IMG/VR virus record: IMGVR_UViG_3300009703_000019
Location: 1 to 60,947 of that record
Source: a virus
Direction: 5' to 3' (one strand)
DNA: 60,947 bases
In this document: positions 124 through 46,739 of the stretch, piece after piece
Layout of the letters: the number at the start of each line of letters is the position of its first letter
Numbering within the stretch: the stretch's first letter is position 1
Made by a program: the position numbers and the translations under genes
The notes under the pieces: model-generated
The model's input: the letters and a program-made list of their open reading frames with translations, nothing else
Database searches by the model: none
Told to the model about the DNA's origin: nothing

Positions 124-1044
124 TCAAGGTCTTCTCAAAACTTTTGGTTCAGTATCCCAACGATCCTCAAGTTCCTTTTGAAGTTCTGATTCAGGAATAT
201 TATTAACAATCCATTGATATAGCTGTTGCATAATCTGATCAGGGGTCTTATTAGGTTTACCCCGCCGTTTGATAGTGATGTAAGTGAAGTCTTTAATAAC
301 ACCCAATTTCTCACCATCCTTACTTTTAATATATTTACCGGAGGTTCTATTCGCCGGGGAAACCCTGGCATCATCATCTTTCCAGTGAATTGTATTTTCT
401 AAATTATTAAGAATAACTTTGATTTCACCATTGATAGCTAATTTCTTACCCTTATTCTTAATAAGATCAAACATAGTATTAGCAGCACCAGTATGAGTTT
501 GAAATAGAATATCATCCTGCACAATTCGGGGTCTAGTTCTATTATTGGTAACAGCAAGTTGATAATCAGTAAGAACCCATACCATGTGAATATTAGCTGG
601 ATTATAACCAGCATTCAATAGGTTTGGCATCATCTTAGAAATCGAATTAATATCCTTTGCTGTAATATCAAACATGATGTTGGGTAGTACAGACTTGTTC
701 TTCATACCAGATAATAGAGCATTCATGGTATTATCTTTGATACCAAGTTTTTCTATAAATGCGTGTAGTTTAGATACATCAGCAGGTTTCTTTAGATTAA
801 GTCCTTGAATTTCTGGATACTTATTTTTGATAGCACCTATCTTCATGAATGCAGTTTTCCATTCGTCTACGTCGCGAACTTTAAACTTCTCTTTCTCCAT
901 GAAGTTAGTTGATGCGAATCCTTTACCACTTCCAGCACCACCAGCGAGGAATACTATTTGGCCGTACTTCTTACCATTGTTAATAAGAAGTAGCTTCTCC
1001 TCAAGGTATTCGAGTGATTCGTTGAACTCTTTGAATGGTTTCAT
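124..1044 (-). CDS. Packaged P-loop kinase (zeta-toxin-like)
   Basis: A 306-residue protein with a Walker A motif GGAGSGKG at about residues 35-42 after a hydrophobic strand (QIVFLA), followed by KVRDVDEWK, resembling zeta-toxin/AAA-type small-molecule or protein kinases. The substrate is unknown. The N-terminus MKPFKEFNESLEYLEE matches the short MxxFKxF leader shared by neighbouring genes and contains an L-x-E site as used by the T4 prohead protease gp21. The protein is therefore probably packaged in the capsid and injected. Its start overlaps the stop of the preceding 57-residue membrane protein (ATGA). The kinase fold is well supported by the motif; the packaging role is inference. Confidence 0.7.
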   Translation of the reverse strand: MKPFKEFNESLEYLEEKLLLINNGKKYGQIVFLAGGAGSGKGFASTNFMEKEKFKVRDVDEWKTAFMKIGAIKNKYPEIQGLNLKKPADVSKLHAFIEKLGIKDNTMNALLSGMKNKSVLPNIMFDITAKDINSISKMMPNLLNAGYNPANIHMVWVLTDYQLAVTNNRTRPRIVQDDILFQTHTGAANTMFDLIKNKGKKLAINGEIKVILNNLENTIHWKDDDARVSPANRTSGKYIKSKDGEKLGVIKDFTYITIKRRGKPNKTPDQIMQQLYQWIVNNIPESELQKELEDRWDTEPKVLRRP

Positions 1045-1214
1045 GCGCTATCCTTTTTTATAAAATATACTGCTAGTCCAGTAACATATAATAACATACT
1101 TAGTGGCATTAATAATATAAGAATTGGGTATTGTTCTATATTAGGAATTCCGAATACAACAAACACAATTCCTATGAGGACTACGCTTAGAGGTGCTATG
1201 CTAAATGATTCCAT
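1041..1214 (-). CDS. Small two-helix membrane protein
   Basis: A 57-residue ORF starting MESFSIAPLS, with two hydrophobic segments (about residues 8-24 and 29-51) and a lysine-containing tail. Its start overlaps the stop of the gene at 1214-1603 (TAATG) and its stop overlaps the start of the kinase gene (ATGA), which strongly supports translation. The product is not recognised. Confidence 0.6.
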   Translation of the reverse strand: MESFSIAPLSVVLIGIVFVVFGIPNIEQYPILILLMPLSMLLYVTGLAVYFIKKDSA

Positions 1215-1603
1215 TATACTTCCAGTTTAGGATCGTTGGACTTAAAGTCTTTCTTACGCATTACTGTTTTGGATATCATATCAAACTCTTGATTCTTAGC
1301 GTCCCACTTTAATACAAATGGTATATTAACATGAGAGTTGATATCATGTAGAATTGCTTCTGCGTTCTTACCTAACTTAGATATCTTTGATCTATGTTTC
1401 TTATAAGTTAGTTTAAATATCCGTACAAGTTCACCTGATGAAATAGGTTTCTTATTACGAGCATCATTTACTCTATCTAAGAAATGACGAGTAAACTCTA
1501 CATCAATACCTATTTTAGCAAACAGCTTATCTGCCATCCTCTCTACTGCATCTAAGTCTGCTTTACTTAGGTCTTCGGTAATAAACTCTTTAAATGATTC
1601 CAT
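1214..1603 (-). CDS. Conserved T4-like protein with capsid-targeting leader
   Basis: A 129-residue protein of a family I recognise from marine T4-like phages; its core has the blocks VEFTRHFLDRVNDARN and KTVMRKKDFK. The N-terminus MESFKEFITEDLSK has the family leader and an I-T-E cleavage-type site within the first ten residues. The function is unknown. The invariant H and R/D residues in the RHFLDRVND block suggest an enzyme or RNA-binding fold, but nothing definite can be said. It starts at the only in-frame ATG that keeps the leader. Confidence 0.7.
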   Translation of the reverse strand: MESFKEFITEDLSKADLDAVERMADKLFAKIGIDVEFTRHFLDRVNDARNKKPISSGELVRIFKLTYKKHRSKISKLGKNAEAILHDINSHVNIPFVLKWDAKNQEFDMISKTVMRKKDFKSNDPKLEV

Positions 1604-1645
1604 TCCTTTTATTCTTTCTTCTAATTATAAATCCTTTAAAACTTT

Positions 1646-2083
1646 TCATTTAATAATCCCGAATGTGACAACCCCATCTTCTTTGGCTTGTATAATTTTA
1701 ATATTCATCGCCTTCAGAAATGCTATAACTTTCTCTGAACCAATCTTGTGAAGGAATTTAGGTAACTCCATTACTTGTTTACCACCACCAAAATGATATA
1801 GAACTGCGTCATATAACTTTTGCTGGACTGAGTTCATTGGTTTAGAGGCTACAGACTTCAGAAGATCAACTACAGTACCTTGAACATTAATCTCTGGTAT
1901 TATTAATCTAGAACCACTAACTCTAAAATTAACCTCAGAAACCTCATCACCATAGGTGGAGGCAAGTTCCTTCGAAGGTGTGATCCATGTTATACCCCTT
2001 CGATTGGGTTTCCCGGGATCAACCCCAGAAGGATGACCTCTGTAATATGTGGTTTCCTCTATGAATTCCTTAAATGGCTTCAT
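1646..2083 (-). CDS. Capsid-targeted ADP-ribosyltransferase-like protein
   Basis: A 145-residue protein. The start at 2083 is chosen because it yields the leader MKPFKEFIEETTYYRG; a longer reading frame upstream lacks any such match. After the leader come YYRG (an R-containing first strand) and then TWITPSKELASTYGDEV, resembling the R-S-E layout of ADP-ribosyltransferases, where a Tyr-Arg-Gly strand precedes an S/T-containing strand. In T4 the packaged ADP-ribosyltransferase Alt modifies host RNA polymerase; a similar role is inferred from fold and leader. The catalytic Glu is not certain. It overlaps the end of the preceding gene by 14 bases. Confidence 0.55.
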   Translation of the reverse strand: MKPFKEFIEETTYYRGHPSGVDPGKPNRRGITWITPSKELASTYGDEVSEVNFRVSGSRLIIPEINVQGTVVDLLKSVASKPMNSVQQKLYDAVLYHFGGGKQVMELPKFLHKIGSEKVIAFLKAMNIKIIQAKEDGVVTFGIIK

Positions 2084-2309
2084 AGTCGTATGCGCAATCA
2101 CCCTTTGAATTAAGGACAGAATGTATTCTGACCACACCAAGGAATTCGTACATATTTCTCATATTATTTGATGAGACTGAATCATCATAATAACAAACCA
2201 TTTTCTTATTTTTATACTGAGTCTTTAGATGTGCTTTAACTAGAGAATGGAATAATCCCTCTTCAAGTCTCCCCTCATTTAAGACACTTTTAAATGATTT
2301 CATTTCCAT
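2070..2309 (-). CDS. Small capsid-targeted hypothetical protein
   Basis: 79 residues, beginning MEMKSFKSVLNEGRLEEG. It has the shared xSFK leader followed by L-N-E and L-E-E sites of prohead-protease type. The rest (KKMVCYYDDSVSSNN and so on) is not recognised. The start overlaps the stop of the gene upstream (TAATG). A second ATG two codons later is an equally possible start. Confidence 0.55.
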   Translation of the reverse strand: MEMKSFKSVLNEGRLEEGLFHSLVKAHLKTQYKNKKMVCYYDDSVSSNNMRNMYEFLGVVRIHSVLNSKGDCAYDYEAI

Positions 2310-2590
2310 TAACTCTTTTTATATTGATAAGAAACTGGTACATCTTCAGGACTATTAAACTTCTTAGCTTCTTTCTTTATACCCTGGAGTGACTTAATAA
2401 TATCATTTAATGCCTTAGCATTAAAGTCGTTACCGTTCTTCTGAGAACTATAGAAACTCTCAAATGCTTGCTTAACTGAATATAACTCATTACCTATGAC
2501 ATGACCTGGAAGTCTCATAAATGACTCTTGGAGAGGTTTATCTTCGAGCACTGATTGTGCTGCATCTTTCAAGCTTTTAAATGATTTCAT
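2309..2590 (-). CDS. Capsid-targeted hypothetical protein
   Basis: 93 residues, largely helical and lysine-rich, starting MKSFKSLKDAAQSVLEDK with an L-Q-E site at about residues 20-22. It is the first gene after the late-type box at 2689-2696, so it would head the operon of packaged proteins running leftward to the window edge. The product is unknown. It ends on TAATG with the next gene. Confidence 0.6.
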   Translation of the reverse strand: MKSFKSLKDAAQSVLEDKPLQESFMRLPGHVIGNELYSVKQAFESFYSSQKNGNDFNAKALNDIIKSLQGIKKEAKKFNSPEDVPVSYQYKKS

Positions 2591-2688: not shown

Positions 2689-2696
2689 TATTTATA
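2689..2696 (-). promoter_or_regulatory. T4 late-type promoter for the left packaged-protein module
   Basis: TATAAATA on the minus strand in the otherwise gene-free interval 2591-2724, about 100 bases upstream of the first gene of the module (2309-2590). A 61-codon reading frame crosses this interval, but its composition is lysine/isoleucine-biased noise and it overlaps the gene upstream, so the interval is better read as promoter plus leader. Confidence 0.5.
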
Positions 2697-4351: not shown

Positions 4352-6163
4352 TTAGTGGTCGTACCCTTGTGGTTCTCTAATAACATCTCTTCTTTCTAAT
4401 AAATCGTCGAGTTGATATTTGTCAATCGTTTCATATTTCATGAGACATTCGGTCATAGAATGTAAGATGTCTTCATTATCTTCGAGTATTTTCTTAGCCT
4501 TATCATAATTTTTGGTTGTTAATTTAATAACTTCCTCGTCTAGAAGTTTAGATATTTCTGGTGAAACTGTTTGAGCGGGTTGGCCCATGCTCCTACCCAT
4601 GAACGGATCACCTTGTTCATCTTCATAGCAAAGTGGACCTACTGCGTCACATAATCCCCATCGTTTGACCATATTTCTAGCAATAGATGTTGCTCTCTCA
4701 ATATCATTAGATGCACCAGTTGTAACTTTATCTTTACCGTAAACTAATTCTTCTGCAATCCGACCCCCATATAACGATTGAAGTTGTGATTCTAATTTTT
4801 CTTTTGATGCGGAATAAGAATCCTTTTCTGGTAGGAACATAGTAACCCCAAGAGCTCCACCTCTCGGCATAATAGATACCTTATAAACTGGATCATGAGT
4901 TTCGGTTAATCTACCTACAATGGCATGACCAGCCTCATGATATGCTGTCATTCTCTTCTCGTCCTCACCCATTATCATGGTTTTCTTTTCTACCCCCATA
5001 ATGAGTTTATCTTTTGCCCTTTCGAGGTCTGCCATGCAGATGTTTTCTTTATTTTCTTTTGCGGCAAAAAGAGCGGCCTCATTAATGAGATTTGCAAGTT
5101 CAGCACCACTGAATCCAGTAGTACCCTGTGCAATATATTCAAGTTTAATATCCGCGGATATTGGCACCCTTCGCATATGCACTTGAAGTATTTGCCCTCT
5201 GCCCTTGACATCAGGAAGTCCAACATTAATTTCTCTGTCAAATCTTCCGGGTCTTAATAATGCTTTATCTAGAACATCTGCTCTATTGGTTGCACCGAGT
5301 ACAATGATTCCATCTGAATCATCGAACCCATCCATTTCAACTAATAATTGGTTTAGGGTTTGTTCTCTCTCATCATTACCTCCACCGTGACCTGCCCCAC
5401 GCTGTCTTCCTACTGCATCAATTTCGTCTATGAATATGATACATGGACTGGATTTTCTTGCTTCAGAGAACATATCCCGAACTCTAGATGCACCAACACC
5501 AACAAACATTTCTACAAAATCTGAACCACTTATTGAAAAGAACGGAACATCTGCTTCACCGGCAATAGCACGAGCAAGTAAAGTTTTACCTGTGCCTGGT
5601 GGACCAACCATCAATGCACCCTTCGGTATTTTTGCACCGAGTCTTACATATTTTGGTGGGTTTCTAAGAAAATCTACCATCTCAGAAACCTCATCAAGAG
5701 CTTCTTCTACACCTGCGACATCAGAGAAAGTAACTTTCTCCTTTGACTGTTCTAGTTTTTTAGCTTTGTTCTTTCCTACAAATTTACCAGCACCACCGCC
5801 ACCTTGTCGCTTCATCCACCATATCCACACCCCTATTAATAACAATATAGGAAACCACGAAATGAATATGCTGAGAAAAAGAGAACCTTCCTTTGGTGGA
5901 TTTGCAATGACATCTACACCATTCTGGAGGAGATCATCTACCATGTGGGGATCATTGGGAGCATATGTTATAAATTTTCCACCGTCATAATATTCACCAA
6001 CAACGGTTTGATCATCTACTACAACTTTTTTTACCACCTTATCATTGACTAAATCTATAAATTTAGCATATGATACTTCCGATCCTATCTGCCCCCCTTT
6101 AGAATTCCCGAGGAAAGAGATAATAACTAATCCCATAATTAACCAAATTATTAGTCTTTTCAT
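4352..6163 (-). CDS. ftsH: ATP-dependent zinc metalloprotease FtsH
   Basis: A complete 603-residue FtsH: membrane helix (about 4-20), periplasmic domain (24-92), second helix (95-117), AAA domain with Walker A GPPGTGKT (187-194), Walker B IIFIDEID (242-249) and RPGRFDR second region of homology (304-310), then the M41 protease with HEAGH (409-413) and the third zinc ligand Asp near 487. The family degrades membrane and regulatory proteins in the inner membrane; in E. coli it controls LpxC, and with it the balance of lipid A and phospholipid. A phage copy next to lipid-metabolism genes could redirect membrane lipid turnover or protect the phage takeover. It is slightly short at the C-terminus compared with the E. 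coli enzyme (644). Confidence 0.95.
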
Positions 6164-6173
6164 AAATTGAATC

Positions 6174-8564
6174 CTATAATTCTAATATTTCTGATTCTAC
6201 GGAATGAACAACGTTGTTCATTGTCAAAATAGAATCGTAATTAAGTGATAGCGAATCAATCTCATGATTAACCAACCACGATGTTATTTCCGGGAAATCC
6301 GATGGTGCTTGCCCACAGATCCCAATATATTTACCATGTCTTTTGCATGATGTTATTGCCATTTCCATTAATTTGAGCACTGCTCCATTCCTCTCGTCAC
6401 ATCCGTTAATATTAGACGAATCTCTATCAACCCCAAGGGTTAATTGGGTTAAGTCATTAGATCCTATAGAAAATCCATCACAGTATTCTAAGAATTCATC
6501 CGCCAATAATGCATTACTTGGAACTTCGCACATGAATATAATTTTAATACCATGTTGACCAGATTTTATTCCATTTTCTTCTAATAATTGTATTACATTT
6601 TTTGCTTCATTTACAGTTCTAATAAAAGGAACCATAACTTGTATATTATTTAATCCATATTCTAGAATAACTTTTCTTATTGCAGAGCATTCCAACTCAA
6701 ATGCAAGTTTAAATTCTGGGGAATTATATCTATATGCACCCCTAAATCCGAGCATAGGATTTTCTTCCTCTGGTTCATAGAGATCACCACCATAGAGGTG
6801 AGCATATTCATTAGTTTTAAAATCGGATAATCTGAATATAACTGGTTTGGGATATACCGAAGCCGCAATGGTAGCAATACCATCTGCCAGTCTACTTCTA
6901 TAAAATTCTGTTGGTCGTGAATACCCAACAGTTTTTTCCGTTATGTGATCGTGCATCTCCTCAGATAATAGTGCATGATCGAGTATTGCGTTTGGGTGTA
7001 TACCTATACGGGAATTGATTATAAATTCAAGTCTTGCAAGTCCAACACCATCATTAGGATACTTAGCTATTTTAAATGCCATATCTGGATTACCAAGATT
7101 TAGCATCAATTTTGTTTTTGTTTTCTTGTATGAAGAAAAGTCTATTTTCTCTGTGGTGTATAGTAGGAGTCCATCGTAAACATATCCTATTTCACCTTCT
7201 GCACAAGATATTGTTATCTCCTCGTCATTTCCTATAACTGAGGTAGCATCATCACATCCAACCACGGCAGGTATACCAAGTTCTCTTGCTATAATTGCTG
7301 CGTGGCAAGTCCTACCTCCTCGATTGGTAATAATACCAGAGGATTTTTTCATTATTGGTTCCCAATCAGGATCGGTTATATCAGTTACGAGTATATCCCC
7401 CTCATTGAATTGATTCATATCACTGATATCATTAATGATAGATGATTTCCCCGAACCAATTTTAGATCCAATGGGTTTACCTGTAGTAATTACGGAGGAT
7501 GTTCGTTCTAATTTAAACACCTCATCAGAGCAAGGAGAATCCGCAGAATGAACCGTTTCTGGTCTAGATTGAACTATAAAGATTTCATTGGTAATACCAT
7601 CAATCGCCCACTCTATGTCCATGTGGGTCTTTTTACCATATTTCTTAGAATAATGGTCTTCAATAATTACTGCAGATTTAGCTAATGATATAACTTCCTC
7701 ATCACTTAAACAAAATTCTTGCTGCATGGATTTATCAACTTCAATATTATTCGTCCTATTAGACTCAGAATAAATCATTTTGACTAATTTGGCACCAAGC
7801 TGTCTTTGTATAATAGATTTATATCCATCCTTGAGAGTTGGTTTGAATACATAAAATTCATCTGGATTGACATTACCAGATACCACATTCTCACCAAGTC
7901 CGTATGCACCGGTGATAAATACCACATCATCAAATCCTGATTCTGTATCGAGGGTAAACATAACACCCGCGGTACCTCTATCAGATCGAACCATTTTCTG
8001 AATACCAATTGAAACTTTTACATCCCTGTGAGAATATCCATTACATATTCTATATGATATAATCCTGTCTGTAAATAATGAAGCGAATACGAGTTTACAT
8101 GCATGTATAACATCAACCGCACCAAATACATTTAGATATGTATCTAACTGACCGGCAAATGAATTTGATAATGAATCTTCTGTAGTTGCAGAAGATCTGA
8201 TAGCAACAGACCCACCAAGTTCATGATACGCTTGAAGTATCTCGAATTCTAATCGTGGTGGCATCTCTCCATTAATAAACCATGACCTAATAGTTTTACC
8301 TATTTCTGATAATGAGTCAATATCATCAATATCAACGTTCTTTAATATATCTTCAATTTTATGTTCGAGTTGATTGTGTTCAATAAAATCAGTATAACCA
8401 TCTACCTTTATGGCGAATCCATTCGGTACATTAATACCAGATTCGGTGAGTTCGGAATACATTTCACCGAGAGAAGCATTTTTACCACCAACTATAGAGA
8501 CATCTGATATACTTAATTCAGAATATTCTCGAATATAAGATAAATCACGATCAAATGCATGCAT
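6174..8564 (-). CDS. ppsA: Phosphoenolpyruvate synthase (pyruvate, water dikinase)
   Basis: 796 residues, the full length of the family. The N-terminal ATP-binding domain begins VSIVGGKNASLGEMY and contains GGSVAIRSSAT; the central swivelling phosphohistidine is in GGRTCHAAIIARELGIPAVVG; the C-terminal PEP/pyruvate domain has FSIGSNDLTQLTLGVDRD and the Cys proton donor in GICGQAPSD. It converts pyruvate + ATP + water to PEP + AMP + phosphate, the entry to gluconeogenesis. It lies between endolysin and FtsH with 10-15 base gaps, so it is probably on the same transcript as isocitrate lyase. It could equally regenerate PEP for sugar phosphates needed by PRPP synthetase. Confidence 0.93.
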   Translation of the reverse strand: MHAFDRDLSYIREYSELSISDVSIVGGKNASLGEMYSELTESGINVPNGFAIKVDGYTDFIEHNQLEHKIEDILKNVDIDDIDSLSEIGKTIRSWFINGEMPPRLEFEILQAYHELGGSVAIRSSATTEDSLSNSFAGQLDTYLNVFGAVDVIHACKLVFASLFTDRIISYRICNGYSHRDVKVSIGIQKMVRSDRGTAGVMFTLDTESGFDDVVFITGAYGLGENVVSGNVNPDEFYVFKPTLKDGYKSIIQRQLGAKLVKMIYSESNRTNNIEVDKSMQQEFCLSDEEVISLAKSAVIIEDHYSKKYGKKTHMDIEWAIDGITNEIFIVQSRPETVHSADSPCSDEVFKLERTSSVITTGKPIGSKIGSGKSSIINDISDMNQFNEGDILVTDITDPDWEPIMKKSSGIITNRGGRTCHAAIIARELGIPAVVGCDDATSVIGNDEEITISCAEGEIGYVYDGLLLYTTEKIDFSSYKKTKTKLMLNLGNPDMAFKIAKYPNDGVGLARLEFIINSRIGIHPNAILDHALLSEEMHDHITEKTVGYSRPTEFYRSRLADGIATIAASVYPKPVIFRLSDFKTNEYAHLYGGDLYEPEEENPMLGFRGAYRYNSPEFKLAFELECSAIRKVILEYGLNNIQVMVPFIRTVNEAKNVIQLLEENGIKSGQHGIKIIFMCEVPSNALLADEFLEYCDGFSIGSNDLTQLTLGVDRDSSNINGCDERNGAVLKLMEMAITSCKRHGKYIGICGQAPSDFPEITSWLVNHEIDSLSLNYDSILTMNNVVHSVESEILEL

Positions 8565-9047: not shown

Positions 9048-10325
9048 CTAAAATTGTTCCTCTTCGGTCGAGCCATCCATAGCAGTAGTAGATGATTTTC
9101 CACCTTGTATAGTATTGGTAATTAAATCAAAATATCCAGCACCAACTTCCTCTTGATGTCTTGCAAATGTATATCCATCTTTAAGAGATGCGAATTCTGG
9201 TTCTTGAACTCCCTCAACATAAGCAGTCATACCCCTCTCAACATAATCCTTCGATAACTCAAACATAGAATGCCACATATCATGAATACCAGCAAGGGTA
9301 ATGAATTGCCATTTAAATCCCATCTCACCTAGGCGTTTCTGATAATGTGCTATGGTTTCATCATCTAAATTCTTTTTCCAATTGAATGATGGTGAACAGT
9401 TGTAAGCCAGCAACTTGCCAGGATATTGTTGATGTATCGCAGTCGCAAATTTCTGTGCTTCTTCGAGATTAGGTACTGCAGTTTCACACCAGAGCATATC
9501 AGCATACTGTGCATATGCAAGTCCTCTGGAAATGGCCTGATCGATTCCAGATTTAACCCTATAGAATCCTTCCTCTGTACGTTCCCCTGTAACAAATTCC
9601 TTATCACGAACATCTATATTAGAGGTCAGTAGAGTTGCGGCATTAGCATCGGTTCTAGCTACGATAATAGTTGGTACACCCATAACATCGGATGCTAATC
9701 TTGCGGATACGAGTTTTTGAATTGCTTCCTGAGTTGGAACCAGTACCTTACCGCCCATGTGACCACATTTTTTGGCAGAGGATAATTGATCTTCAAGATG
9801 TATACCAGACACACCATTCTCGATCATTGATTTGGTCAGTTCATATGAATTAAGAACTCCACCAAACCCAGCCTCGGCATCAGCAATAATAGGAGCAAAA
9901 TAATCTACTTCCCTCGATCCCTTTGCCCATTGAATTTCATCTGCTCGGCGAAACGTATTATTAATACGCTTAACCATTTGTGGCACTGAATTATATGCAT
10001 AGAGCGATTGATCTGGATACATAGTTTCGCTGGAATTGCCATCCGCTGCTACTTGCCATCCCGATAAATATATAACTTTAATTCCAGCCTTGACCTGTTG
10101 CATTGCCTGACCGGCAGTTATAGCTCCCATAGAATTAACATATCCATCTTCGTTAATTAAATCCCAAAGTTTTTTAGATCCCAGAGAAGCCATAGTGTAT
10201 TCTTCATCCATCGAACCTCTTAATCGAATAACATCTTCGGCCGAATAAGGTCTGGAGATACCATTCCATCGTTCATTCTCTCTCCAATCCTCTTCTAAAG
10301 TTCTCACTCTGCCCAAATTTTCCAT
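9048..10325 (-). CDS. aceA: Isocitrate lyase
   Basis: 425 residues, close to E. coli AceA (434) along its length: [40 protein letters not shown], the catalytic loop KKCGHMGGK with Cys187, and a C-terminal STEEEQF that closes the active site. It cleaves isocitrate to glyoxylate and succinate, the first step of the glyoxylate shunt. The start at 10325 is preferred: GAGG lies 12 bases upstream, and the in-frame extension to 10430 has no homology and covers another small gene. It is in the run downstream of the CobT-like gene. All catalytic motifs are intact, so an active enzyme is expected. Confidence 0.93.
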
Positions 10326-10351
10326 ATATATTTTTGACCTCGTAATTGTAA

Positions 10352-10522
10352 TTAATTTGCTAAATTTAGTATTAACCATACTCCAACGCATATGATTAAT
10401 GGTATTGTCATTGTCAATATAGACATCCAAACTGACTTAGTAACAGATTTACATAACCCATTACATTGATAATTAATCTTTTCCAGTATTATTTCTACCC
10501 CAGACTGTACTATTTCGTTCAC
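10352..10522 (-). CDS. Small membrane protein with GTG start
   Basis: A 56-residue frame starting at GTG (10520-10522) with GGAG upstream. The N-terminal half is soluble with two cysteines (CNGLC), followed by one membrane helix ([19 protein letters not shown]). It overlaps the end of the gene at 10473-10670 by 50 bases and lies in another frame of the apparent N-terminal extension of isocitrate lyase. The plausible topology suggests it is real; it is unproven. Confidence 0.4.
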
Positions 10523-14106: not shown

Positions 14107-15072
14107 TCACTCTTCGTATTTGTTTGATCTAGAATTAATGATATTAATTGTTTCTAATATATTCTTTGCCATTTTCTCTGATGCAACATCTATCATTTTA
14201 CCGTCAAGAGATGCTGCACCTTGTCCTGCTTTAGATGCTTTGTATAATGCATCAAGTATTCTTTCTGCCGTGGTGACTTCTTCTTTTGATGGTGTGAATA
14301 CTTCATTTGCAAGTGGTATTTGTGACGGATGTATTGCCCATTTACCAGTACATCCGAGAGCTGCTGCACGCTTAGCTGCTAGTACATATCCCTCTTTATC
14401 CTTAATATCACCGTATGGACCATCTACGGGTCTGAGACCATACGCTCTACATGCAACCACCATTCTTGATAAAGCAGAATGCCATTGATCACCAGGATAA
14501 TTCTCATTGAGCCCACCGATATTGGTAGTTCTTGCTCGAGTAGATGCAGCATAATCGGCAACTCCAAAATGCATGGATTCTAATCTAGAATTAACACTCT
14601 TCCTTGCAATTTCATCAACATTAGACATACCAAGAGCAGTTTCTATTAGGCATTCTAATCGAACAGATCCCTTTTTGAGATTGTGTTTTATTTCAAGAGT
14701 ATTAATGATACATTCAACCATGTATATATCATCAAATACACCTACCTTTGGTATTAATATAGTATCTAATTTTTCTCCGCAATGTTCAACCAACTGTATT
14801 ACATCATCAAGCCAATAACCAGTTTCAAGTCCGTTGATACGAACACATATAGTTTTATTTGCGCCTTTCCAATCTAGATTATTAATTCCAGCAATCACAT
14901 TAGCTCGTGCCTGTATCTTATCTGGTGTTGCAACAGAATCTTCCAAATCTAGGAATACAAAATCTGCATCGGAATTTAATGCTTTCTCAAACATTTTTGG
15001 ACTAGATCCCGGAACTGTTAAATCACATCTCTGAAGTCTTGATATTGCGGGTTCGTATACTGTATAACTCAT
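14107..15072 (-). CDS. mcl1: L-malyl-CoA / beta-methylmalyl-CoA lyase (HpcH/HpaI family)
   Basis: 321 residues, full length for the malyl-CoA lyase subgroup rather than plain citrate-lyase beta. Conserved stretches include RCDLTVPGSSPKMFEKAL, FLDLEDSVA, VRING (Arg78), LIETALG (Glu144), FGVADYAASTRART (Asp173) and GKWAIHPSQIPLANEVF, the family's Arg, metal-binding Glu/Asp and CoA-closing elements. The enzyme reversibly condenses acetyl-CoA with glyoxylate to malyl-CoA. Combined with a thioesterase it can replace malate synthase, as in Rhodobacter sphaeroides. It lies downstream of PRPP synthetase on what looks like one transcript. Confidence 0.88.
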   Translation of the reverse strand: MSYTVYEPAISRLQRCDLTVPGSSPKMFEKALNSDADFVFLDLEDSVATPDKIQARANVIAGINNLDWKGANKTICVRINGLETGYWLDDVIQLVEHCGEKLDTILIPKVGVFDDIYMVECIINTLEIKHNLKKGSVRLECLIETALGMSNVDEIARKSVNSRLESMHFGVADYAASTRARTTNIGGLNENYPGDQWHSALSRMVVACRAYGLRPVDGPYGDIKDKEGYVLAAKRAAALGCTGKWAIHPSQIPLANEVFTPSKEEVTTAERILDALYKASKAGQGAASLDGKMIDVASEKMAKNILETINIINSRSNKYEE

Positions 15073-16350: not shown

Positions 16351-17103
16351 CTATTCTTGGGAATTAAATTTCTCGCAGAGTTTATGATATTTAACAGACG
16401 AATGATCCCAGAATGAATCAATCTCGAAGTTTTTAAGTCCTACCAGCATACCAATAACATATTGTTTAAACATGTACCATCTACTGAAACCGTGTACATG
16501 ATTACCCTTTCTATCAAAATAATTTAGGTGACCAATATGAGTATACCCAATGAATTCGGGTGGCTGGCGAGTTACAATATCATTGTTATTTCTAAATCGA
16601 TAGAATTTGGGTCTAAACGCTTCACGAAATTCTGAATTACCTACTCTCGGTGATCCGTATGTATATCCAACTACATTTTCGTCACCGAGTCTTCCAGCTG
16701 CAATGGTTGCTAGGGCAGCACCAAGGGAATGACCAGTGAGGAAAATATTTTTCTTGGAGACAGAATTCTTTTCAAAATGATCAAGAAAATCATCCCAAAT
16801 TAAATCAAGACCATCTTTAAATCCCCGGTGAACTCTACCAGAAGAATCTTCAGAAGCCTCTGTTTTACGAAATCTGATATCAGTTTTAATATCAGATAAT
16901 TTTTTTGGTTCGGTGCCTCGAAATGCATAAATTAAATCGTTGTCATCCCATAGGGCATAGCATTGTGTAGATCCAGAATTAAAAAACTTAATGTCAAAAT
17001 GCTCAGAATATATATCAGAAAATTCCATAACTTCAAGATAAGCATTCATCGACAATTCAGAAAAGAATTCTGCGTTCGCTTTAGAAAACCCTGAATCTAA
17101 CAT
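16351..17103 (-). CDS. Class 3 lipase (alpha/beta hydrolase)
   Basis: 250 residues matching the Lipase_3 family: YAFRGTEP (oxyanion strand), VHRGFKDGLD, the nucleophile elbow GHSLGAALA with Ser126, acid Asp175 (NNNDIVTRQPP) and His234 (DHSSVKYH). The family hydrolyses ester bonds of triacylglycerols or phospholipids. There is no signal peptide or lipobox, so it should act in the cytoplasm or be released at lysis. It could supply fatty acids to the beta-oxidation genes, or act on host membranes during lysis; the adjacent lipoprotein gene fits either. Substrate is not predictable. Confidence 0.85.
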   Translation of the reverse strand: MLDSGFSKANAEFFSELSMNAYLEVMEFSDIYSEHFDIKFFNSGSTQCYALWDDNDLIYAFRGTEPKKLSDIKTDIRFRKTEASEDSSGRVHRGFKDGLDLIWDDFLDHFEKNSVSKKNIFLTGHSLGAALATIAAGRLGDENVVGYTYGSPRVGNSEFREAFRPKFYRFRNNNDIVTRQPPEFIGYTHIGHLNYFDRKGNHVHGFSRWYMFKQYVIGMLVGLKNFEIDSFWDHSSVKYHKLCEKFNSQE

Positions 17104-21758: not shown

Positions 21759-23684
21759 TTAAGTTTTTTCCTCTGAATAATGGAGTGGTCCACCCCGAAA
21801 TGGAGCAAATCCTGTACCAAAAATAATACCAGCATCTACAAGATCTGCAGACTCAACAATGCCTTCGCTCAAGCATTTTTCACACTCAGCGATAATTGTT
21901 CCAACTAATCTAGATGTTATTTCTGGTTTTGGATTTCCGTGAGTCTTCTCTACATAGACATCATGTATATAAAACCCAACCCCTGATTTAATACCAAGAT
22001 TTCCATTCTCAACCAACCTCTCAAGCCTCTCTGGTATTTTAAGTCCTAGTTCCCCACAAATTGTATCCATGACAAAATAACAGACATCAAGTCCTACCGT
22101 ATCAGCCAGTTTCAATGGTCCTATAGGCATACCAAAATCTGTGAATGAAGCATCAATTTCTTCTTTAAGATATCCCTCATCAAGCATATTAATAGCTTCA
22201 ATGAGTGTAGGCATCAACACCCTATTAACGAGGAAACCCGGAGAAGATTTAACCTTCAATGGAAGTTTATCAATATGTCTGCAAAATGCCAAGGATTTTT
22301 CTATAACATCTGTCGAAGTAATGGGAGAATATATAACTTCAATTAGCGGCATCTTCGCAACTGGATTGAAAAAATGAATACCAACCAACCTCTCTGGATT
22401 TTGCATCTCAGCAGATAATACTTCTAATTTAATAGATGATGTGTTGGTTGCAAGTATTGCCGTGCTTTTCATTTCCTTTTCGAGTTTAGAATATAGATCC
22501 CTCTTGATATCTACATTTTCAATAATTGCTTCAATAACTATATCTGCAGATGGTATGCCAAACCCCTTTGAGTCTGGTATTAATCTGTCATATACTTCAT
22601 TGATTAGATGTTCTTGACCCGAAAATCTTTTTTTATAGAACTTATATGACCTAGCCATCCCCTTTGCTATGGTAGTCTCATCAATATCTTGAAGAGTTAC
22701 CTTATAACCAGATAGTGCTGCCCACATTGCGATATCAGAACCCATTGTTCCAGCACCAATAACATGAACGTGCTTGAGGTCGAGTTTTGATTTATCCCCC
22801 TCCCCTTTAAGCATATCCTGAAGCATGAACACACGAAGAAGATTCTTTGCGGTGGGAGTTACAGCTAATTTCGAAACACTTTCTGCCTCTGCTTTCATGA
22901 ACCTAAATTCATCGTACCCATATTTCTCCCATATATCAACTAATGCGTATGGTGCTGGGTAATGCTTTTCTTTAACTTTAGAATGGAGATTTCTTCGAAT
23001 CTTAGTGGATACCAATTTCCTACCAATAGACGAATGAAGTAGTGAATCGAGTTTATCTGATCTTCTCGGTGGAGGAGATTTTTTAATTATATCCACCGCC
23101 GATTTATCGAATAAGCGAAGAGGAACAACGTAATCAACGAGACCCATCTTTTTAGCTTGATATGCAGATAAAGTACGACCCGTCAGCATTATACCCATTG
23201 CCTTAATGACCCCAAGTACTCTAATGGATCTAACAGAACCACCAAATCCGGGATGTATTCCAAGCTTAACTTCTGGGAATCCGATTCTCGATTTTGTCGA
23301 GTCAAGAATGATTCTATAATCACAAGACAATGCAAGTTCAAGACCACCACCAAGACATACTCCATTAATCAGTGCGAGTGTGGGAAAGTCCATAGTATCA
23401 ATTAACCACATAACCTCTTGACCCTTGGTTATGGCTTTATGTGCATCTTCATATTCGTGGAATTTCTTAAATTCTTTAACATCAGCACCAGCAATAAATC
23501 CAGAAGATTTGGCAGAGGTAATTACCATACCCGCAGGTGAAATATTCCTAACTTCTAATAACACTTCTCTTAATTCATCTAATACCTCAGACGATAATAC
23601 ATTCATTGATCCATCAGCATAATCGAAATATACCCATGCGATTTGATTATTATCTAGTACTAATTTAAAATGTTTATAATCCAT
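21759..23684 (-). CDS. fadJ: Bifunctional enoyl-CoA hydratase / 3-hydroxyacyl-CoA dehydrogenase (FadJ/FadB-like)
   Basis: 641 residues, somewhat shorter than FadJ (714). The N-terminal crotonase domain has SGFIAGADVKEF and the two catalytic glutamates in GGGLELALSCDY and GFPEVKLGIHPGFGG. The second domain begins VHVIGAGTMGSDIAMWAAL (NAD site) and has the catalytic His in GIHFFNPVAKMPLIEVI and SPGFLVNRVLMP. It carries out steps two and three of beta-oxidation. It lies 3 bases after the thiolase gene, as in fadIJ operons. The missing C-terminal part of the second dehydrogenase repeat is minor; activity is expected. Confidence 0.92.
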   Translation of the reverse strand: MDYKHFKLVLDNNQIAWVYFDYADGSMNVLSSEVLDELREVLLEVRNISPAGMVITSAKSSGFIAGADVKEFKKFHEYEDAHKAITKGQEVMWLIDTMDFPTLALINGVCLGGGLELALSCDYRIILDSTKSRIGFPEVKLGIHPGFGGSVRSIRVLGVIKAMGIMLTGRTLSAYQAKKMGLVDYVVPLRLFDKSAVDIIKKSPPPRRSDKLDSLLHSSIGRKLVSTKIRRNLHSKVKEKHYPAPYALVDIWEKYGYDEFRFMKAEAESVSKLAVTPTAKNLLRVFMLQDMLKGEGDKSKLDLKHVHVIGAGTMGSDIAMWAALSGYKVTLQDIDETTIAKGMARSYKFYKKRFSGQEHLINEVYDRLIPDSKGFGIPSADIVIEAIIENVDIKRDLYSKLEKEMKSTAILATNTSSIKLEVLSAEMQNPERLVGIHFFNPVAKMPLIEVIYSPITSTDVIEKSLAFCRHIDKLPLKVKSSPGFLVNRVLMPTLIEAINMLDEGYLKEEIDASFTDFGMPIGPLKLADTVGLDVCYFVMDTICGELGLKIPERLERLVENGNLGIKSGVGFYIHDVYVEKTHGNPKPEITSRLVGTIIAECEKCLSEGIVESADLVDAGIIFGTGFAPFRGGPLHYSEEKT

Positions 23685-23687
23685 AAT

Positions 23688-24986
23688 TTATCTCTTTAAA
23701 TTTTCAATTAATATTGCACCACCTTGCCCATGTCCAATACATAGAGATGCAACCCCATATTGAGTGGAATTCGCCTCAAGTGTTTTGGCAAGGTGATATA
23801 CAATTCGTGTACCAGAAGCACCAACCGGATGACCTATAGAAATAGAACCCCCGTGCATGTTTAACTTGGTGGGATCAATCTCCCCGAATGCTTCTTCCAT
23901 TCCAAATTCCTCTGAGCAATAATCCTTCGATTCCATTGCCTTTAAGCACCCAATTACCTGTGCGGCAAATGCTTCATTTAATTCGAAAGAATCGATATCC
24001 CCGACACTAAGACCATTTCTCGTAACCATTGGAACTAACGATTTTACTGGACCAAGACCCATTTCAGAAGGATCTACTCCAGCCCAATTGATATCGACGA
24101 TTTTAGCAAGAACCTTATCCCGAAGTCCATACTTATCGAGTGCTGCATCACTTGCCAATAAAACAAATGAAGCACCATCAGTAATAGGTGCAGAATTACC
24201 TGCAGTCACATTACCAAATAATTTATCAAAAACTGGTCGGAGTTTCGCCAGTTTTTCAATGGAATTCTTGGATCGTACGCTTTCATCGGTATTATAAACC
24301 CCCCCAACCTTATCATATATATTGGTTATCTCGTTTTCAAGTATATCGATACTCTGCTCTGTGTTATATTTTTTATGAGAGTTCACAGCATATTCATCCA
24401 TATCAGTTCTTGTAATACCAAACCTCCATGCTAAATTCTCGGCCGTTTGACCCATACTTAAATTTATAGTTGGATCTTTTAATGCTCTGAGGAGAGAGAT
24501 TACTGGGACTAACAACTTCGGTCTAAATTGAAGCGCGACAAGTAATTTTTTAGGAAAGGATTTAGCCATGTTGAATTTAGATAACCACATTGCCATATCA
24601 TCATTAAATAATAATGGTGCGCGAGACATGGTTTCTGTTCCACCAGCAAGAACCAAATCAGATGTACCAGAGGCTATATTTTTATACGCAGAATCAATCG
24701 CTTGAAGACCTGATGCACAATTACGTTGAACCGTATGTGCTGGTATATTAACATTGAGTCCGAGTCTCAAGGCTAGGAGTTTAGCTATATTACACTCATC
24801 GGCATTGGGATTCATGCAACCAACAACCAATTCATCTATATCATTATCTCCAATTCCATTACGAATTAAGAGAGGACGAGCGGCCTGAATTGCAAGGTCA
24901 AGAGCTTTAAATTTACCCGGAGTTCCCTTTGCCTTTAAAAATGGCGTTCTTGAACCATCTACTATATACACATCATTATATTTCAT
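23688..24986 (-). CDS. fadI: Acetyl-CoA acyltransferase / 3-ketoacyl-CoA thiolase (FadI-like)
   Basis: 432 residues, close to FadI (436). Acylated Cys in VQRNCASGLQAI, the His in GHPVGASGTRIVYHLA, and the second Cys in SLCIGHGQGGA are all present; GGTETMSRAP and ELNEAFAAQ are further family blocks. It cleaves 3-ketoacyl-CoA with CoA to acetyl-CoA and a shortened acyl-CoA. With the FadJ-like gene it forms the beta-oxidation complex. It is preceded by genes for ThyX and a nuclease in the same run. Confidence 0.93.
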   Translation of the reverse strand: MKYNDVYIVDGSRTPFLKAKGTPGKFKALDLAIQAARPLLIRNGIGDNDIDELVVGCMNPNADECNIAKLLALRLGLNVNIPAHTVQRNCASGLQAIDSAYKNIASGTSDLVLAGGTETMSRAPLLFNDDMAMWLSKFNMAKSFPKKLLVALQFRPKLLVPVISLLRALKDPTINLSMGQTAENLAWRFGITRTDMDEYAVNSHKKYNTEQSIDILENEITNIYDKVGGVYNTDESVRSKNSIEKLAKLRPVFDKLFGNVTAGNSAPITDGASFVLLASDAALDKYGLRDKVLAKIVDINWAGVDPSEMGLGPVKSLVPMVTRNGLSVGDIDSFELNEAFAAQVIGCLKAMESKDYCSEEFGMEEAFGEIDPTKLNMHGGSISIGHPVGASGTRIVYHLAKTLEANSTQYGVASLCIGHGQGGAILIENLKR

Positions 24987-31196: not shown

Positions 31197-33395
31197 TCAT
31201 TTATTTTCTAAATATGAAGGAATAGCCAATCGTGCATATAGTGTTATTTTCTTAACAAACTTATCCACAGATATGACCTCTGAGGATAATTTTCTGTCAT
31301 TTGTTATTCTAGCTTCTTCCATTTTTGTTAACGGATCATTCGGATCTTTGGATAAAAACGTTTTTGAAATGATTCTGTTTCTCAGGGATAATGGATATGA
31401 CATCAATTCATTATTATCAGAGAGATCAAATTCACATGCTCTTCTTACAATATTGTGACCCAGATTATCGGATGGTGGAATGTATCTTCTCCCTAGAGGG
31501 AAAATAATTTTACGCAAAATCCCTCTTATAAGGGGATTGGGATAGTTATTTAAAATCTCTTCAAATGAAGTTTGAATTTTAAACAAAGAATTTTGAAGAT
31601 TCCATTCAACTATAGGGGATACAGTCTTACTTTCTTCTTCACCTTCAAATCGTTTTAGAACGGCAGACATGATATACATTTCAGAGAGTATATCTGCAAA
31701 TCTACCAGATATTTTTTGTTTCTTTTTGAGAGATCCACCAAGAATCATGAGAGTTATATCAGAAAGGAGTGCAAAGTTTCTAGATTCCTGACCAAGCCTG
31801 CCATAATACTTCTTGAGAAGTTTTTTGTGTGTGGTGCCGGAAGTCTTTGGTGGTCCCACAAACATTCTATTTAGGAGGTTGTTACCAAATGCTTTAAAAA
31901 TATTAGATAACGTATATTTAATATGACCAAATAATGCTGCTCTAAATTCTTTTTCATTTCCATTGGTTGCCGACTCAATCTCACGACCAAGGAAAGGATG
32001 ACATCGCAGAGCTCCCTGAGAGAAAACGATTAAGGATCGAGTGAGAATATTAGCACCCTCTACCGTAATAGCAATTGGTTGTCCTATATACATATTCAGA
32101 AGGAAATTAGAAGGACCGTCACTTATAGCCTTACCCCCTAAAATATCCATACCATCATTAATACCACTTCTCATTTTTTCTGTCGACTGATATTTTAGAA
32201 GTGCTGATATCACAGAGGGTCTTTGACCGGAATCAATCCCAGCATATGTTAAGTCACAAGCAGCTTCGAGAGCATAAGCATCAGAGAGAATCCGAATCAT
32301 TGGTTCCTCAATACCCTCCATTTTACCAAGAGAAACTTTAAATTGTTTTCTAATACGAGTGTAGGCGGTGGTGACACGAGCAGTATGTTTTAAACCCGCC
32401 ATTGATAGACTCGGTAGGCTTATGGCACGACCTGCAGCAAGACATTGCATCAACATCATCCATCCTTTACCAATACCATTATGTTCACCAATGATATGAT
32501 CAATGGGAATAAACACATCTTCCCCATAATTAGGACCATTCATAAATGCTTGTCGAGCAGGGGAATGTCTTAAACCGATCTCAACACCCTTTGTATTTCT
32601 TGGTACTAAAGCTAGGGTAATCCCTCTGTCATGAGTAGGATCCCATTTTCCTTTGTTAACGTGCTTTAGAGTTTGGTCATGAGACTCCCCATAACTTTTA
32701 AGTAGATTATGTGGATCACGAAGTCTAAATGCTAAACCAATGAGAGTAGCTACTGGACCAAGGGTTATGTACCGCTTATCCCAATTTAATCTAACCCCTA
32801 GAGTTTCTCGACCCTTCCACATTCCCATTTCAACCACACCATCATCCGGGAGAGAACCGGCATCAGAACCAGCGGTGGGACCAGTAAGAGCAAATGCTGG
32901 GATTTCGGCACCTACTGCTAAATCGGGAAGCCATTTCCTTTGTTGTTTTTCAGTTCCAAATTCATGAAGTAATTCTCCCGGTCCAAGCGAGTTAGGCACC
33001 ATAGCTGTGATTGCAAGAGATAATGATCTGGATGCCAGGATTGATATAACTTCACTCTGAGCATATGCGGAAAATTCAAGACCCCCATATTCTTTCTTTA
33101 TATTCAGACCAAAGAATTTATTATCTTTGAGATAAGCCCAAACCTCTTTAGGGAGATCCATTGCCTGATTGATTTCATAATCATTTGTCATTTCACAGAG
33201 TTCTTGAACAGGACCATCAATGAACCTTTGTTCTTCGGGACTGAGTTTAGGAATCTCTATATCTCTTAATATATCCCAATTCGGGTTTCCAGAGAATAAT
33301 TCAGATTCCCACCAAACGGTACCAGCTTCAAGAGCTTCTCTTTCGGTTGAAGACATTTTCGGAAGTATTTTCCGAAATAATTTATGTAGTTTCAT
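31197..33395 (-). CDS. fadE: Acyl-CoA dehydrogenase (FadE-like)
   Basis: 732 residues of the large FadE type (E. coli 814). It lacks about 80 N-terminal residues, including the membrane segment. Visible blocks: KKEYGGLEFSAYA, FALTGPTAGSDAG (FAD/substrate region), TLALVPRNTKGVEIG, FIPIDHIIG and GRAISLPSLSMAG, all typical of FadE. It catalyses the first, FAD-dependent step of beta-oxidation; electrons would go to host ETF. It follows NrdA, the ferredoxin-like gene and a hypothetical gene on one strand, so its expression is tied to nucleotide metabolism. Confidence 0.92.
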   Translation of the reverse strand: MKLHKLFRKILPKMSSTEREALEAGTVWWESELFSGNPNWDILRDIEIPKLSPEEQRFIDGPVQELCEMTNDYEINQAMDLPKEVWAYLKDNKFFGLNIKKEYGGLEFSAYAQSEVISILASRSLSLAITAMVPNSLGPGELLHEFGTEKQQRKWLPDLAVGAEIPAFALTGPTAGSDAGSLPDDGVVEMGMWKGRETLGVRLNWDKRYITLGPVATLIGLAFRLRDPHNLLKSYGESHDQTLKHVNKGKWDPTHDRGITLALVPRNTKGVEIGLRHSPARQAFMNGPNYGEDVFIPIDHIIGEHNGIGKGWMMLMQCLAAGRAISLPSLSMAGLKHTARVTTAYTRIRKQFKVSLGKMEGIEEPMIRILSDAYALEAACDLTYAGIDSGQRPSVISALLKYQSTEKMRSGINDGMDILGGKAISDGPSNFLLNMYIGQPIAITVEGANILTRSLIVFSQGALRCHPFLGREIESATNGNEKEFRAALFGHIKYTLSNIFKAFGNNLLNRMFVGPPKTSGTTHKKLLKKYYGRLGQESRNFALLSDITLMILGGSLKKKQKISGRFADILSEMYIMSAVLKRFEGEEESKTVSPIVEWNLQNSLFKIQTSFEEILNNYPNPLIRGILRKIIFPLGRRYIPPSDNLGHNIVRRACEFDLSDNNELMSYPLSLRNRIISKTFLSKDPNDPLTKMEEARITNDRKLSSEVISVDKFVKKITLYARLAIPSYLENK

Positions 33396-42579: not shown

Positions 42580-44439
42580 TTATTTATTTATAATGGCTTT
42601 GAAGCCTATTCTACTTCTAGAGGGAGCAGTTGCTCCGTGACCCCAAGAGAATTCGAATTTCATATTCTTAAATTTGGCGTATTTAAACCTAAGTTTACCG
42701 GGTAGAGCATCAGCGTTTAATTGGAGTATCGATATCCTAGCTAGCATGCTTGATAAAATTTCAGTATACTCCTTCGAATTCAAAACTTGTAGTAAAGCTT
42801 TTGTTAAAGGCGCGATAATAATACCCTCTGGTTGAGTCAGTCTGTCATCATCATATTTTTTCCAAGTAGCGTCAGATATTTTATATTTCGTCATTTTAAA
42901 AAATTTAGACAGCAATACCTTTAATTCCTTTGAATTTTTTTGTTTTAACCAAGCCCTTAACACTGTAGAATCGACAACCTTAGTTCCGGTTACGCGATAT
43001 AATTCTTTAATTGGAGCAGTATTCAAGTGCCCATGTGCTTGTATCGAGGATTCTAGAACTGGCGCCATTATTATCATTTTTAGAATAGTTATAAGTTTTT
43101 CTTCAGTTGGGTTTAAACCCTTTGCGGCTATGATTTTATCCATAATACCGTCAAGGTTTGTTATTGACGCTGAAGACCCCTGACCAGATTTAACCGATAT
43201 TGGATACCTAATGCTACCCCTAATTCCATAAAAATCCAGTAGAGGTTCATTAATCGCTGAGGGAAATAAAACTTTACTAAACCCGATATTAGACATTGCC
43301 CAAATAGCAGCGCATGATTCCCCGAAATTCGCTGAAATAGTTTTAAGTTCTTTAGGATTAAAGGGTGATTTAGAAGGAACGGGTATATCATTTCCCTTTG
43401 TCTGCGAGAGAGTTAATAATTCTATTAAATATGAAGTTTGGGAAGTATTAAGTCCCATTTCCAGCTTAAGTTTATTAATCTTCTTTTTAACTATAGTTAT
43501 GAGAGCTTTTGCTGTTAATTCTTGTCCTGTAACACCAAGATGGTCTGGTGTTAAGTCTTTGCCTCCTACAATATTATCAATCACATTTCGCAAAACAATA
43601 TAGACTGATCCAATTTCAGACGTCGCTTTGTACGTATTATATTTGCTAGATCTAGATTCGCGGTCTCCAGCGAGACTAACCTTATAGCCAAGCGGTGATA
43701 GTTTTTCTTCTAACCCCTCTGATGGATTCAGCTTCAATCGAATATGAAATCCGCCATTTTTGTAGGAGTTAGTTATTTGATAGGAAGGAAGTTTTGATTT
43801 TATATCCGATAATATATCAGATTCAATATCAGTCATCTTTGAACGAGATTCAATTAACTTGATCCATTCGTTAAATGATTTTATATTCATTTCACCTTTA
43901 AGAATATCGAATAATTCTTGACCCTTTTTAAATCGAGGTGGAAGACCTTTCTTAAATAATTCAAAATCATTACTTGATACTGCCGCTCTCATTTTGGAAG
44001 CGGACATACCCTCAACACCTTCGGCATCTGGGTCACGATCCCCTGCAGAGACAACATCCACCTTTTTAAAATCATAGAATCCGTGCCTCTTTCCATCAAC
44101 CCCATTATATTTAAGAATAAGTTTTTTGAAGTCAGAGATTCTGTCAGAACCAACAACCATTTTTACTTCCTCATATCCTTCATCATAAAACTTAACCAAA
44201 ATATCAAATACATTAGTTACAGATTCATCCATAATATAAAGGGAATGTTTCGGGAACATTAATCTAGAATACTTCACCTTATCTTTGAATGAGAGGGGAT
44301 TCTTTTTCTTATCGTGGGACTTGGAAAGATATAATCTATATCCACCAGATCCAGAATTCTTTTTCAGAGCATCTAATAATTTACCATGACCTGTGGTCGG
44401 TGGGTTTAATCTTCCAAATGAAAATGTTATATTTTTCAT
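42580..44439 (-). CDS. Nucleotidyltransferase fused to capsid-targeting leader and nuclease-like domain
   Basis: 619 residues. Residues 1-180 are a cytidylyltransferase/NMNAT fold: FGRLNPPTTGHGK (HxGH-type) and GMSASKMRAA (SxSxxR-type). At Met184 begins MNIKSFNEWIKLIES, matching the leader of the packaged proteins, with AAAGGTGAA just ahead, so an internal start is possible. The C-terminal part (FGESCAAIWAMSN, FPSAINEPLLDF, YPISVKSGQGSS) resembles phage PD-(D/E)XK-like proteins. Either a fusion or two products from one gene. NAD or sugar-nucleotide chemistry is inferred for the N-terminal part. Confidence 0.7.
   Translation of the reverse strand: MKNITFSFGRLNPPTTGHGKLLDALKKNSGSGGYRLYLSKSHDKKKNPLSFKDKVKYSRLMFPKHSLYIMDESVTNVFDILVKFYDEGYEEVKMVVGSDRISDFKKLILKYNGVDGKRHGFYDFKKVDVVSAGDRDPDAEGVEGMSASKMRAAVSSNDFELFKKGLPPRFKKGQELFDILKGEMNIKSFNEWIKLIESRSKMTDIESDILSDIKSKLPSYQITNSYKNGGFHIRLKLNPSEGLEEKLSPLGYKVSLAGDRESRSSKYNTYKATSEIGSVYIVLRNVIDNIVGGKDLTPDHLGVTGQELTAKALITIVKKKINKLKLEMGLNTSQTSYLIELLTLSQTKGNDIPVPSKSPFNPKELKTISANFGESCAAIWAMSNIGFSKVLFPSAINEPLLDFYGIRGSIRYPISVKSGQGSSASITNLDGIMDKIIAAKGLNPTEEKLITILKMIIMAPVLESSIQAHGHLNTAPIKELYRVTGTKVVDSTVLRAWLKQKNSKELKVLLSKFFKMTKYKISDATWKKYDDDRLTQPEGIIIAPLTKALLQVLNSKEYTEILSSMLARISILQLNADALPGKLRFKYAKFKNMKFEFSWGHGATAPSRSRIGFKAIINK
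42585..42592 (-). promoter_or_regulatory. T4 late-type promoter for small structural genes
   Basis: TATAAATA on the minus strand, overlapping the end of the fused gene, about 30 bases before the 53-residue protein's ATG and its ribosome site. Confidence 0.55.
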
Positions 44440-45158
44440 TACTTATTCCTTTTATTACCTATGGAGTCACCATACGCAACAGCCAAAGGAAGTAATTTAA
44501 GAAGGGGTAGATTGATTTTCAGGACATTGAGTTTCATATTCCTATCTAATAATATAGCAGACAGAAATCTATGATGACCGTCAATAATACGATTATCAGA
44601 TGATACGATTAATATTTTAGAATTTAATAGTTTAATGGTCCCGTCGACGCCATTCCTGGCTATAGTACCCAGACCCTTATCAAAATATATTTGATCTTGA
44701 ATTGGGGTTAAATCCTTTGCTGCGATCTTATCTCTTGTGACACTTACAACGTCATCTTTTTTATTACCATCATTCTTTTTTAATCCCGCCTCTAAAAATT
44801 TATTAGCTTTATCCCCAGACAGACCTTCGGGGAATGGATTCGCTTGATTGGTGTCTTTGGAAAATGGTTTAGTTATATCAAGTTTACCCTGACTCAATCT
44901 CTTTTGAAATTTATCAACATCCTTCGAGGTTATAACCGGCATATCCTTTCTTTTGGTAGAACCTTTATATGCGAGTTTTTGTGCTAGGATATAGTTTTCA
45001 TCAAAATCCGGAATATCTTTATCTAGTGTTGGGAATTTAGATAATGCATATTCTCTTGCATCTTCAAGCGAAGTGGTGATAACTTCCAATTGGCCAGCTG
45101 AAGCACCTCCCCCTTCCATCAACATAACAGCTATTAAGTAATTCTTAAATCCCTTCAT
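44439..45158 (-). CDS. Packaged ParB/Srx-like protein
   Basis: 239 residues. Leader MKGFKNYLIAVMLMEGGG with an L-M-E site. C-terminal ILIVSSDNRIIDGHHRFLSAIL is the ParB/sulfiredoxin-like DGHHR motif, found in ParB-type CTPases and nucleases. The middle is Lys/Asp-rich. It may be injected with the DNA; DNA binding is inferred. Confidence 0.6.
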   Translation of the reverse strand: MKGFKNYLIAVMLMEGGGASAGQLEVITTSLEDAREYALSKFPTLDKDIPDFDENYILAQKLAYKGSTKRKDMPVITSKDVDKFQKRLSQGKLDITKPFSKDTNQANPFPEGLSGDKANKFLEAGLKKNDGNKKDDVVSVTRDKIAAKDLTPIQDQIYFDKGLGTIARNGVDGTIKLLNSKILIVSSDNRIIDGHHRFLSAILLDRNMKLNVLKINLPLLKLLPLAVAYGDSIGNKRNK

Positions 45159-46725: not shown

Positions 46726-46739
46726 AGTATTGTTTCCTA

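Follow-up and report, generated by a model that had tools for sequence, protein, structure and literature searches.

The window, i.e., the whole stretch of DNA analysed here, is a 60,947-base piece of the genome of an uncultivated marine T4-like phage. At 124-2590 it carries six genes on the minus strand, five of which (p1-p5) encode proteins with a similar N-terminal leader. All five ORFs that the sequence-only reading had described as neighbouring genes with starts of the M-x-x-F-K-x-F type exist. Because a leaderless 57-aa ORF (1041-1214, minus strand) separates p1 from p2, they represent five out of six adjacent genes and not five contiguous ones. This ORF is hydrophobic and membrane-like, and it also adjoins p1 in the relative L139. 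The product of p1 (124-1044) has the N-terminus MKPFKEFNESLEYLEEK with the leader MKPFKEFNESLEYLEE and a P-loop kinase-like domain (GGAGSGKG), and matches phrog_5268 and, weakly, Zeta_toxin. The p2 protein (1214-1603) starts with MESFKEFITED and contains the conserved domain VGIDVEFTRHFLDRVNDxRN, and the 145-aa p3 protein (1646-2083) starts with MKPFKEFIEET, followed by an ADP-ribosyltransferase (ART)-fold-like domain. In case of p4 (listed ORF 2070-2309), the start was moved from 2309 to 2303, because its relatives in L135 and L138 begin with MKSFKTVLNEG; the corrected gene (2070-2303) encodes MKSFKSVLNEG and a short domain. The outermost gene, p5 (2309-2590; MKSFKSLKDAAQSVLEDKPLQES), combines an IPI-like leader (MKSFKSL) with a distal L-x-E site (PLQES, residues 20-22), both of which are kept in its L136 relative (MKSFKDLKN..GKPLEES). 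Relatives of the window carry differing sets of leader genes at the corresponding position, next to a conserved membrane-like protein (L135, L136, L138, and L191-L195).

A second cluster of leader genes (42580-46973, minus strand) is located downstream of a gp41-like helicase gene (47023-48375), among replication genes. Its first gene (46740-46973) encodes a lysine-rich protein of 77 aa with a weaker leader (MLTYSELIKSLEEKELPKKK), followed by a DUF6267 protein (45155-46372) with the leader MLSFKSHLKEAKN (MLSFKSHLKEA). In the relatives L019, L058, and L073, the DUF6267 domain is preceded by MKSFKSFITE or similar. Next are a 239-aa protein (44439-45158) starting with MKGFKNYLIAVMLMEG (MKGFKNYL) and an NMNAT/cytidylyltransferase-like protein (42580-44439), whose own start lacks a leader. 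The stretch MNIKSFNEWIKLIES, situated internally after the first domain of the latter protein, could mark either a fusion that has kept a leader in its interior or an alternative start inside the gene.

The proposal that the first cluster lies behind a late-type box holds in so far as a candidate late promoter box, TATAAATA (2689-2696, minus strand), is found 99 nt upstream of p5, but T4 late consensus boxes are no more numerous in the window than chance predicts (11 found versus 13 expected, all 11 on the coding strand). A second copy of TATAAATA (47003-47010) precedes the second leader cluster by 30 nt. Late expression of both clusters is suggested by these two boxes.

By the standard of T4-like phages, the region at 3843-33395 is rich in metabolic genes, as judged by eye from the sequences. 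They resemble genes for FtsH (4352-6163), PPDK (6174-8564), isocitrate lyase (9048-10430), citrate/malyl-CoA lyase (14107-15072), a lipase (16351-17103), FadB (21759-23684), a thiolase (23688-24986), and an acyl-CoA dehydrogenase (31197-33395), which together look like a set for fatty-acid breakdown and the glyoxylate pathway.

The T4 internal proteins start with MKTFKEFTSTTTPVSTITE (IPI; MKTFKEF..ITE) and MKTYQEFIAE (IPII and IPIII). According to a review (PMC9026906), the first 10 residues of IPIII are enough for targeting to the head, with residues 4 and 7 governing targeting and residues 8 and 10 governing cleavage, which occurs after L/I-x-E by the prohead protease gp21. In the window, p1, p2, and p3 carry F4 and F7, and p4 (F4 and V7) and p5 (F4 and L7) carry weaker combinations. 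The L/I-x-E motif starts at residue 8 in p2 and p3, at residue 14 in p1, and at residue 20 in p5. In p4, counted from the start of the listed ORF, motifs begin at residues 10 and 15; the first of these is residue 8 from the corrected start. The site is hence positioned at residues 8-10 in p2, p3, and p4, and distally in p1 (14-16) and p5 (20-22). Lacking the 8-10 site, p1 and p5 would need the distal one and would thereby correspond to the IPI type.

These positions are conserved. Eight relatives of p3, whose identity falls to as little as 28%, all have M1, K2, F4, F7, I8, and E10. Among 18 relatives of p1, L14, E16, K17, and the Walker A motif are invariant; close relatives of p1 retain the leader, and several possess the 8-10 site (FITE, FLDE) as well. 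Residues 1-8 are disordered in the AlphaFold model of p3. At the level of sequence, the leader matches the T4 capsid-targeting sequence (CTS) at the functionally important positions.

Two observations outside the cassette concern similar starts. Relatives of p1 from another phage group (L169-L190) begin with MIKDLIYEVITEEQLDEKL or similar, which resembles the N-terminus of cyanophage gp21 (MKLIREEIEKVEVITEE) and possibly represents a second leader type. T4 gp61.1 (AF158101 18966-19130; L012 1467-1631) begins with MKTFKEFIKED, an almost perfect CTS, and may be a fourth internal protein of T4.

The L/I-x-E site within about 25 residues, which had been put forward as a cleavage signature, is indeed present in p1-p5 but is poorly diagnostic alone. 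Because 21 out of 63 other genes of the window have such a site within residues 2-27, it is a weak signal. The whole leader exceeds chance. A scoring matrix trained only on the leaders of T4 IPI-III and of virion-detected proteins of the cyanophages S-CREM2 and S-SCSM1 was applied to the 1111 possible starts of the window, and the whole-window search that had been recommended ranked p3 (15.8), p2 (14.2), p4 (11.2), the DUF6267 protein (8.6), and p1 (7.6) as the five best; p5 scored weakly (1.7). The scores next below (7.4 or less) belong mostly to internal methionines of larger genes; p1 and the DUF6267 protein, scoring just above such sites, were counted because both are real gene starts. Four of the five top matches fall within the six adjacent genes out of 68 (p ~9e-5). 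The leader proteins of S-CREM2 score at least 20, or 7.7-17 in leave-one-out scoring, and the best other protein reaches 0.6. Some of these proteins also served to train the matrix, which leaves leave-one-out scoring, a T4-based leader definition, and the ranking in the window as the fair tests.

In IMG/VR, the pattern M-K-x-F-K-x-F-[ILM]-x-E was found at DNA level in at least 120 stretches. Among the matches listed, 117 out of 129 are gene starts, compared to 13 out of 38 for a scrambled pattern, and a T4-type core gene occurs nearby at 79 of 90 leader loci (at least 5 kb, among the matches listed) versus 14 of 26 loci of the scrambled control. The control overestimates chance, because several of its matches are true leaders with F4 (MFKFKEFL). 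When the leader is removed, what remains of the proteins can be sorted into at least 60 unrelated families, including SAM lyase, ART-PolyVal, DUF3990, HD_4, HicA, DnaJ, methyltransferase, and NMNAT; one and the same leader is exchanged among unrelated domains. On contig L081, at least six leader genes follow one another, including one for a relative of p3. A common N-terminus due to recent gene duplication or chance, carrying no signal at all, is disfavoured and hardly credible: L/I-x-E sites are common and loose F-x-x-F patterns arise by chance, but neither duplication nor chance fits the unrelated mature parts, key positions that are invariant across deep divergence, and the excess of gene starts over the scrambled pattern.

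The earlier identification of a P-loop kinase and an ADP-ribosyltransferase-like protein among the cargo is plausible at the level of motif and fold, respectively. The p1 protein matches the Zeta_toxin profile below threshold (16.6 bits, cut-off 22.3), and a search of its profile against PDB sequences revealed similarity to adenylate kinases at P-loop level only (E 0.26 or worse). In case of p3, the AlphaFold model (pLDDT 79.7) gave VIA-align matches at Z 4-6.4 that are nearly all of the ART fold (anti-CRISPR 6kyf, diphtheria-type catalytic domains, MbcT, and NatR), with weaker matches to Tpt1 and Arr-2; the E-values of a Foldseek search were not significant. There is no Pfam or PHROG match to p3 and no relative of it in the phage collection. 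Y14-R15-G16, W33, and E135 are invariant among its relatives, which would fit an active enzyme. Taken from motifs and a predicted model, a kinase-like p1 and an ART-like p3 are plausible.

The p2 domain either stands alone behind a leader or forms the C-terminus of longer proteins (NMNAT-like and others, up to 1076 aa), in which the leader is again N-terminal. An exception is given by Sinorhizobium phage phiM12, where the domain resides in a 602-aa protein without leader. A profile search with p2 returned no convincing solved relative. A structural identification of p2 was attempted and abandoned, the AlphaFold model (pLDDT 49) being too poor for a search.

Published virion proteomes show that the leader occurs on virion proteins of other phages. 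For S-CREM2, 52 virion proteins are given with coordinates (PMC10665884 Table 3). All 219 proteins of this phage were searched for the leader at exact spacing. The five proteins that bear it, gp6 (SAM hydrolase), gp13, gp14 (APH-like kinase), gp136, and gp154 (cytidylyltransferase), are all in the virion list (p 6.5e-4; 4.4e-5 without the 24 structural proteins). With the T4-based definition of the leader, four out of four are virion proteins (p 0.003). Two further virion proteins show related sequences, gp12 a leader-like stretch spanning residues 17-27 and gp15 a shorter variant. In case of gp12 (OR473000 7704-10313, annotated as Cas9-like), the CTS-like stretch is LRFASFMAEAA, and we presume that its start codon may be misannotated.

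A leader-bearing NMNAT is present in virions of S-SCSM1 (protein 91) and S-SZBM1 (protein 140). In all, the NMNAT/cytidylyltransferase-like protein of the second cluster has leader-bearing orthologues among the virion proteins of three cyanophages; the leaderless DUF6267 protein of S-SZBM1 is not in the virion list. Leader-bearing S-SCSM1_30, S-SZBM1_191, and S-SZBM1_192 are absent from the published virion lists. Two of these three belong to one small family, and S-SCSM1_30 yields only 2 good tryptic peptides. Counting the three cyanophages together, 7 of 10 proteins with the leader were detected in purified virions (odds ratio ~11, p ~3.5e-4, with an approximate background count). The leader thus marks virion proteins in other phages statistically, with exceptions, and the objection that proteins of this type might be missing from particles does not hold in the relatives. 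The commonest leader family (~106 aa, MKSFKQFISESVNIAGDFxGNLY; L017, L018, L022, L030, and other IMG/VR loci) is absent from the virion proteomes of both cyanophages that encode it. It may represent a core protein that is lost, or may merely be too small for detection.

The three undetected leader proteins adjoin head genes, as would be expected if the leader were a scaffold-binding tag, whose bearers aid head assembly (core or size determination, e.g., T4 gp67 and gp68) and disappear by degradation or loss before the head matures, with nothing injected. We regard this explanation as unlikely, since several leader proteins occur in mature virions and since p1, p3, and many relatives seem to carry enzymes as cargo (P-loop kinase, ART fold, SAM lyase, HD, and NMNAT).

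Short N-terminal aromatic motifs can serve as docking sites. The leader could accordingly be a docking motif for another phage protein, e.g., the sliding clamp or the late transcription machinery, on ordinary late cytoplasmic proteins, and the second cluster is indeed located among replication genes. Against this stand the absence of the leader from all replication and transcription proteins of the window and of S-CREM2, the enrichment of leader proteins in the S-CREM2 virion, and the identity of the conserved residues with those for targeting of T4 IPIII, which render such docking very improbable. The leader is likewise lacking on the replication and metabolic enzymes of both the window and S-CREM2, and is therefore not found equally on cytoplasmic enzymes, an outcome that would have spoken against packaging.

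We consider it highly probable that the cluster at 124-2590 forms a cassette that encodes internal head proteins with T4-type CTS. The first 10-22 residues of each protein would act as the targeting sequence; by analogy with T4, the aromatic or hydrophobic residues 4 and 7 would attach the protein to the prohead's scaffolding core, and a gp21-type prohead protease would cleave after (L/I)-x-E. The mature proteins would stay with the DNA in the filled head and be delivered into the cell along with it. The cargo, i.e., the ART-fold-like and P-loop kinase-like proteins, the domain-shuffled p2, and two small proteins, could then target the host or host defences ahead of the onset of phage transcription, as its apparent nature suggests. 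No head gene, including that of the gp21 prohead protease, is contained in the 61-kb fragment. Due to this lack of the protease gene, we infer cleavage, packaging, and injection in the window phage, and the protease is taken from relatives: a gp21 homologue is encoded in G002 and G007, which have a syntenic cassette or a leader-NMNAT-p2 fusion. The idea of a packaged and injected effector set is thus supported by the match to the T4 CTS and by the virion enrichment in relatives, and packaging and injection in this particular phage are presumed from both.

With somewhat less confidence, we favour a more general interpretation, in which one short leader is a general packaging code in marine T4-like phages for a swappable injected arsenal of at least 60 families exchanged via cassettes. 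ART-fold proteins, SAM lyase, HD hydrolase, a HicA-like toxin, kinases, NMNAT, and DnaJ would belong to this arsenal. If this were true, the proteins that reach the host ahead of all phage gene expression could be listed from the genome of a T4-like phage alone, and many uncharacterised phage genes would become candidates for the earliest host takeover or for anti-defence. A direct and cheap test would be possible in cultured cyanophages and T4.

Head packaging via N-terminal capsid targeting is described for DarB of the phage P1 Dar system (DarA, DarB, DdrB, and others; PMC9024508). P1 differs from the window phage in phage group, protease, and head assembly, and the likeness lies in the mode of targeting. 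The cyanophages S-CREM2, S-SCSM1, and S-SZBM1 resemble the window in having leader-bearing proteins, with SAM hydrolase, kinase, and NMNAT of this type in their virions (PMC10665884, PMC9602691, PMC9146016), but they infect other hosts and carry mostly other cargo. No mention of the leader was found in these three reports, and a literature search of open-access papers revealed none that connects it with the enzymes in virions of marine phages. Because the CTS is known and no such paper on a marine leader was found, we view the window cassette as the same signal in a new lineage with a wider, partly enzymatic cargo. While packaging by CTS is established, the lineage, the range and scale of the cargo, and its partly enzymatic nature look new.

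Within T4, Alt is a packaged head protein with ADP-ribosyltransferase activity. It is processed by gp21 (PMC9026906); p3, in contrast, is a protein of 145 aa with a leader of the IP type, and Alt is absent among its matches. The T-even internal proteins form a diverse set of defence proteins in which the CTS alone is conserved (review PMC3012670). The window cassette is like that of IPI, IPII, and IPIII in its signal positions 4, 7, 8, and 10, its diverse mature parts, and its organisation in small gene cassettes. T4 IPI is a restriction inhibitor. The cargo of the window cassette differs from the T4 internal proteins in that it looks enzymatic (ART fold and P-loop kinase), is domain-shuffled, and belongs to an uncultivated marine phage.
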